Of a stretch of 64,000 nt of DNA, positions 4,595 through 41,263 are shown piece by piece. Within the stretch, counting starts at the first letter, position 1, and the number at the start of each line of letters is the position of its first letter. Source of the stretch: Chitinophaga pinensis (GTDB lineage Bacteria > Bacteroidota > Bacteroidia > NS11-12g > UBA9320); the NCBI GenBank assembly GCA_945907065.1, contig CAMDSC010000001.1, forward strand, positions 33,190 through 97,189. The letters run 5' to 3'. A program made the translations under genes and the position numbers. The notes below the pieces were generated by a model that saw only the letters and a program-made list of their open reading frames with translations, was not told the origin of the DNA and did no database searches.

Positions 4595-4667
4595 TTTCTT
4601 CTAAAAAAATTTGTTTATTATCTTGTCGAACATCAAAAAGTAATTTTTAAAAAAGGGTTTACTTATA

Positions 4668-5112
4668 TTAGAGGCTTTCAGCCCCTATAACCCTGACCTT
4701 CTTTTTTTCTTGATAAAAAAAGAAGGCAAAAAAATCAAGCCAAAAATATACTCCCTCCGCACATGCTAACCCACGCCCGTATTTTTGGCATTCCAACGCG
4801 CCTTAACCCGAAACTTTTCCTATTAAACAAAAGCCTTGTCAGTTTGCAGTAGTGAGGTGGCAGGTCAGAAATGCGGGCCGAGCCTAGGAATGAGCGTGGA
4901 AGCATATTTCTGACTTGATTTTTTTGTTTACTTTTTTTATCAAGAAAAAAAGTGAATAGGAGTTATAGAGGGCAAAGCCCTCTAATCGAAGAATTTTTTA
5001 ATCAAAATTTACAAGGCTTTCATTAAGATTATTAAAAACTTTGCAAATAAAATTGCCTAATTTTTAGGAGGTAATACCGTGATTTTTGGACTGAATAAGT
5101 TTTTGAGGCTCA
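4668..5112 (-). repeat. Long palindromic repeat element, copy A
   Basis: Arms are imperfect inverted repeats (TTAGAGGCTTTCAGCCCCTATAACC...CTTGATAAAAAAAGAAGG...ATCAAGCC at left; reverse-complement-like copy at 4905-4985). The core CCAACGCGCCTTAACCCG...AAGCCTTGTCAGTTTGCAG and the flank AATACCGTGATT recur, reverse-complemented, at 40808-41212. Confidence 0.85.
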
Positions 5113-5125
5113 ACTATCTAAACAA

Positions 5126-40777: not shown

Positions 40778-40807
40778 AATCAATATTAATAGGTTGTTAA
40801 ATTAGTG

Positions 40808-41212
40808 GAGTCTCAAACTTCTTAAGCTAAATAATCACGGTATTAACATTTGCAAATTTTTGTTAAGAAAGTCTTCGATTAGAGGGCTTTGCCCTCTATA
40901 ACTCCCATTCACTTTTTTTATTCACTTGTTTATATTTATTTTTAATGGTGTTCATGAACCTACGGTGTCTAGATAAAAAAAGTGAAAAAAAATCAAGTCA
41001 GAAAAATGCTTCCACCCGCAAGTCCGGGTCGCGGCCCGTATTTCTGACATCCCAACGCACGGCTGCAAACTGACAAGGCTTTGTTCAATTGGAAAGTATC
41101 GGGTTAAGGTGCGTTGGGCTTGACAAAACGGCGGGGGTGCGCTGGTACAAGCAAGGGAGCATATTTCTGACTTGATTTTTTGTAACTTTTTTATCAAGAA
41201 AAAAGTTAATAA
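40808..41212 (+). repeat. Long palindromic repeat element, copy B
   Basis: Reverse-complement relative of copy A: AATCACGGTATTA, CTTCGATTAGAGGGCTTTGCCCTCTATAACTCC, CTGCAAACTGACAAGGCTTTG, CGGGTTAAGGTGCGTTGG, CATATTTCTGACTTGATTTTTT, ACTTTTTTATCAAGAAAAAAGT. Confidence 0.85.
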
Positions 41213-41263
41213 AACATTTTTCTTAATTAGATAAGATTTTTTAGATTCTACTAAATAGTTAAA

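Follow-up and report, generated by a model that had tools for sequence, protein, structure and literature searches.

The palindromic sequence between the GldK-like gene and ribH in the window, as we call the whole 64,000-nucleotide stretch of DNA that was analyzed, is probably a single insertion (copy A) of a MITE-like palindromic DNA element that is non-autonomous, depends on a mover acting in trans and carries a hairpin module whose fold as DNA is kept by selection or hairpin-templated correction. The mobile-element interpretation follows from multiple copies, inverted termini, orthologous sites that lack the element, and target duplications (clear in a relative, weak within the genus of the window), and it bears out the non-autonomous mobile element proposed in the first-pass annotation. 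The same annotation had also considered a structured RNA or DNA repeat family, and this too is supported, by strong covariation of the hairpin stem over a phylum.

Structure of the two copies in the window

Copy A is an imperfect palindrome of 490 bp, consisting of two inverted half-elements between short terminal inverted repeats (Table 1). Its arms, 4662-4755 and 4898-4991, are 94 nt each and 77% complementary, and the palindrome includes two T/A hairpins besides. This confirms the imperfect inverted repeat annotated at first at 4668-5112, although not its limits, since the real ends are the terminal inverted repeats at 4625 and 5114; the GC and poly-T/poly-A hairpins quoted at that time were all found where they had been placed. 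Copy A folds much more stably than its dinucleotide shuffles, with a z of -6.6 as DNA and -7.9 as RNA, and 0/100 shuffles equaled it. Copy B is about 70% identical to copy A and lies on the opposite strand; the existence and the reverse-complemented orientation of this second copy had been recognized correctly, while its extent, given as 40808-41212, proved to be slightly longer.

Neither copy (447-490 bp) contains a credible ORF, and no terminator-like site was found inside the element. Both copies sit between convergent genes, and no transposase adjoins them, as had been noted before; the neighbors are an FGE-sulfatase-domain (GldK-like) gene and ribH, which flank copy A, and the YkuD and ccmB genes.

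Table 1. Coordinates of copies A and B and of their parts in the window
Feature	Position	Strand	Remarks
Copy A, entire, 490 bp	4625..5114		Same gene junction without the element in four same-genus genomes
Candidate left target-site duplication TATCTT	4619..4624		Right copy TATCTA at 5115-5120; 5/6 bases identical
Left terminal inverted repeat GTCGAACATCAAAAA	4625..4639	+	Ends shared by other copies in G000, G004 and G006
Left-half GC hairpin AGAGGC-TTTCA-GCCCCT	4670..4686	+	Consensus TTAGGGGCTNTCAGCCCCTATAACCC
Left-half T/A hairpin (stem S1)	4697..4726	+	Loop CTTGAT at 4709-4714
Left-half hexamer ATCAAG (S2)	4734..4739	+	Complement of the CTTGAT loop
Left-half second hairpin GCCAAAAATA...TATTTTTGGC	4739..4789	+	
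Right-half second hairpin GTCAGAAAT...ATTTCTGAC	4864..4914	-	
Right-half hexamer, minus-strand ATCAAG	4914..4919	-	Partner of the right loop
Right-half T/A hairpin	4927..4956	-	Minus-strand loop CTTGAT at 4939-4944
Right-half GC hairpin AGAGGGC-AAA-GCCCTCT	4967..4983	-	
Right terminal inverted repeat, minus-strand GTTGAGCCTCAAAAA	5100..5114	-	
Copy B, entire, 447 bp	40805..41251		Orientation opposite to copy A; relative G006 has this copy at the same site
49-bp nested insert in copy B, between T-arm and loop of its hairpin	40920..40968	+	Recurs in other copies at the equivalent structural site

Copies, ends and empty sites

The first-pass annotation had allowed for the case that just these two copies exist, but in G000, the genome to which the window belongs (2.7 Mb in 63 contigs), such places number about 15 and the half-elements about 22, the latter arranged as head-to-head pairs like the window copies and as solo halves, and the element was also found in 11/39 relatives. 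Full-length copies in G000, G004 and G006 carry an inverted terminal repeat at both ends (consensus GTCGAACCTCAAAAA). Four of ten copies in the window's genus have fully identical 6-bp flanks (TAATTA, TATTTA twice and TAACTA), and the flank agreement of these ten, whose pairs were hand-curated from a longer list that included chance pairs, exceeds that of shuffles at p 0.01-0.03; it is thus modest evidence for a 6-bp target duplication. Stronger evidence of insertion comes from the orthologous sites: the gene pair flanking copy A is also present in G003, G004, G005 and G006, where it encloses a spacer of 60-145 bp in which no part of the element is present. Copy A is therefore an insertion specific to its lineage. 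Copy B, which G006 also has (L093), is older than copy A.

Elements of the related genus to which G011 belongs carry the same inner module between other ends, AATGCTTCTCCG...ACACCAA, and are present in about 60 copies (121 end matches as opposed to 1 for the control). These have clean 8-bp target duplications, e.g. TAGTCTTA, TAAAATTA and TAATCTTT, with p < 5e-5. The module common to the window-genus and the G011-type elements reads (N)CTTTTTT-CTTGAT-AAAAAAG(N')-AAAAAATCAAG.

In most of the features that define a MITE, i.e. no transposase of its own, terminal inverted repeats, and occupied as opposed to empty sites, the element behaves as one. It resembles the MITEs described in Bacteroidota, one from P. 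gingivalis (PMC4596501) and the IS982-derived MITECca01 from Cardinium (PMC9769881), in being short, non-coding, bounded by inverted terminal repeats, present in many copies, mostly intergenic and in need of a transposase in trans. Each of those families was described in one organism, whereas here a covarying module occurs in elements with different ends in several genera. A further difference is that no parental IS was found here; the P. gingivalis element was compared by its description alone.

Candidates for the mover

A cognate transposase with similar ends had been suggested as something to look for, and none was found: there is no autonomous partner with the same ends in G000-G006 at 2 or fewer mismatches, nor among the inspected G011 ends. 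Many MITEs have lost their parent, and since the assembly of G000 is in pieces, a repeated transposase gene could also have dropped out where contigs end. The only long G011 pair inspected, with two G011-type ends 1457 bp apart around a 227-aa ORF, MNTTLDPMLSQINGLKWLPW...LIVGESHY (L476 778-2234; G011:C20:89077-90533), was rejected as an autonomous partner, as the ORF resembles cargo or a coincidence; possibly it is cargo between two elements.

It seems unlikely that a Y1 (HUH) transposase moves these repeats as REP/BIME-type elements, in which case they would correspond to the "atypical secondary structures" near the genes of TnpA-REP subclass 2.6, with the loop or ATCAAG serving as guide and cleavage site. 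The genes of this mostly Bacteroidetes TnpA-REP (RAYT) subclass are reported to have such unusual structures on their flanks, copies of which occur elsewhere, and the subclass is reported without the GT[AG]G foot too (PMC6006769). No GT[AG]G foot was present at the module hairpins of the copies examined. The half-elements are REP-like in that they occur as solo hairpins and head-to-head pairs, in intergenic many-copy families, as do REP, BIME and REPIN sequences, and in G422 a module and a Y1-like gene with the motif YIHQNP are about 300 bp apart. With this sole exception, no module was found beside the Y1 genes of the relatives, in the module-bearing phylum genomes that were read, or at profile hits. 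Moreover, two copy-rich genomes, G008 (100% complete) and G018 (91%), have no Y1 gene, and G000 itself has no REP-type gene, whereas G001 and G002 have REP-type genes and no element. The element is also larger than a REP and has terminal repeats and, clearly in G011, target duplications, neither of which is expected of REPs. With no adjacency and no link to copy number, the Y1/IS200 and REP-type transposases were rejected as the mover.

The hairpin module across Bacteroidota

The core of the module has the order arm NNNCTTTTTT(N), loop CTTGAT, arm (N')AAAAAAGN'N'N', A-run and ATCAAG. A search pattern with three fixed parts, namely the loop, the A-run 3' of it and ATCAAG, and with a free 5' arm matched at least 119 stretches from Flavobacterium, Pedobacter, Mucilaginibacter, Sphingobacterium, Pontibacter, Chitinophaga, Saprospiraceae and others; a few of the listed matches are titled as other phyla, for which misbinning is a possible source. 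The module was present in 23/396 phylum genomes, while the reversed control pattern had no match. Even though it was free in the search, the 5' arm is complementary in nearly all copies. S1 pairs in 92% of the cells among 73 usable rows, which were required to have 6 or more of 13 pairs, and there are 154 double-sided changes as against 49.5 when shuffled (0/500). A shift of the partner by one column abolishes the signal in these rows, the unselected set of 128 rows has the same S1 pairing pattern, and in alignment A3 row L054 adds gaps only. At the place of the second hairpin, a stem of at least 8/9 pairs was found in 37/114 phylum copies, compared with 1/114 shuffled.

Such covariation would also be expected of a structured RNA, and it could be argued that the transcribed module is an RNA pseudoknot, e.g. 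a 3' end stabilizer or a terminator-like structure, which was spread by transposition. The co-variation of loop and hexamer described below, the RNA folding z of -7.9 and the position at the ends of convergent genes are all in line with this, but the kind of base pairs and the gene context make it distinctly unlikely. G-T accounts for only 7 of the 377 paired cells in the variable pairs of S1. Structured RNAs commonly tolerate G-U pairs, and their near absence here favors a DNA hairpin, or correction templated by the palindrome, over RNA. The nearest genes around the phylum copies are more often convergent than divergent (27 vs 8, p 0.002), and the copies have no preference for the transcribed strand (15 sense vs 25, p 0.15), which again favors DNA over an RNA function. 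Taken together, the convergent excess and the lack of strand preference are as expected of tolerated insertions and lend no support to a strand-specific RNA role. In addition, the element is without a terminator-like site, and Rfam, where a known family had been thought conceivable at first, gave no match above the gathering score; both element and module are apparently undescribed in Rfam and the searched literature. Among 111 flanking proteins no gene family is enriched beside the module beyond ordinary genes.

The loop and the downstream hexamer

The CTTGAT loop is complementary to the downstream hexamer ATCAAG. Among hairpins collected without requiring the canonical pair, variant loops were exactly complementary to the hexamer in 5 cases, compared with 0.67 for re-paired tails (maximum 3). 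The variants include CTTGAC/GTCAAG (L043, L238, L248) and GTCTTG/CAAGAC (L209), and bulged ones such as CTTAGTC/GACAAG also occur. The support is moderate, since the cases are few, some come from related copies, and the weaker count of 5 or more matches is not above chance. From these sequences, the covariation suggests that loop and hexamer form a pseudoknot or a guide-site contact. RNA and single-stranded DNA are both conceivable substrates, with the contact taking the shape of an H-type pseudoknot. The ends of IS200/IS605 elements combine a hairpin with base pairing between guide and cleavage site, and the pairing of loop and ATCAAG resembles this. Unlike in IS200/IS605, the would-be guide lies inside the loop, no such transposase is nearby, and the G011 elements have target duplications.

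That CTTGAT is a rolling-circle nick site, and the module derives from the origins of HUH Rep replicons or of IS91/Helitron-like transposons, is highly improbable: a loop that is invariant although its stem varies freely would suit an endonuclease site, and CTTGATA in a hairpin loop resembles the site nicked by Reps of the pC194 and phiX174 types, but the IS91 transposase (PF04986) had no match in 56 relatives (the control genomes being equally silent), and the element had none among 72,556 plasmids and 50,697 phages, with the module in only 9 stretches of a viral collection of 2.9-million contigs.

How a MITE-like DNA element could have reached its present distribution may be envisioned as follows. 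A transposase acting in trans would have recognized the ends and inserted copy A, duplicating about 6 bp of the target. The half-elements are members of a Bacteroidota-wide module, i.e. the T/A hairpin with its CTTGAT loop, the downstream ATCAAG and often a second hairpin, whose folding as DNA is probably maintained by selection or hairpin-templated correction, and which is carried in other genera by MITEs with other ends. When the palindrome is single-stranded, the contact of loop and hexamer could be the recognition structure for transposition or replication proteins. Survival would be mostly between convergent genes, where promoters stay unbroken. A bolder form of the idea, possible though on balance doubtful, is that the CTTGAT hairpin with ATCAAG is a phylum-wide recognition device of single-stranded DNA, in which the loop pairs with its own downstream site and is read by an undescribed protein, making it a common signal for mobility or replication in several unrelated Bacteroidota transposons. 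Whichever form is preferred, undescribed-looking repeats sit between genes throughout one large bacterial phylum, and the module supplies both a search signature and testable pairing rules (stem S1 and loop-hexamer S2). It also raises the question of which protein recognizes a CTTGAT loop that stays invariant while its stem varies freely.

Other arrangements of ends and modules

Several further arrangements were seen. A different left part, GCATCATCCGCATGGGTGCGGCTGGGATCCAACACATGCG ... TTGGTGCCTTTTTTTGCTCCTTTTTTGGGCAAGCAAAAAAGGAG, lies within the same terminal repeats in G004 and G006 (L062 1034-1240, L071 1122-1330, L097, L280 and L294), so the ends carry interchangeable modules. A 123-bp G011-type element without the CTTGAT module (L483 441-563, G011:C18) shows that the G011 ends occur also without it. 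Nested hairpins with a conserved apex ACTCGCTNCGCTCAAACAG come after the module in L157, L158, L161, L234 and L241 (Flavobacterium, Sphingobacterium and Parabacteroides), and this form is a second architecture of the same family. Finally, a second repeat of about 50 bp, TATTCACTTGTTTATGTTTTTTTTCAAAGGTGTTCATGAACCTACGGTGT and variants, which forms the nested insert of copy B (window 40920-40968), was also found in L033, L034, L039, L046, L053, L062, L071 and L294. Its recurrent insertion places are the junction of loop and arm in the T/A hairpin, the ATCAAG tail and the second hairpin, and it seems to be a separate mini-element with hairpins as its targets.
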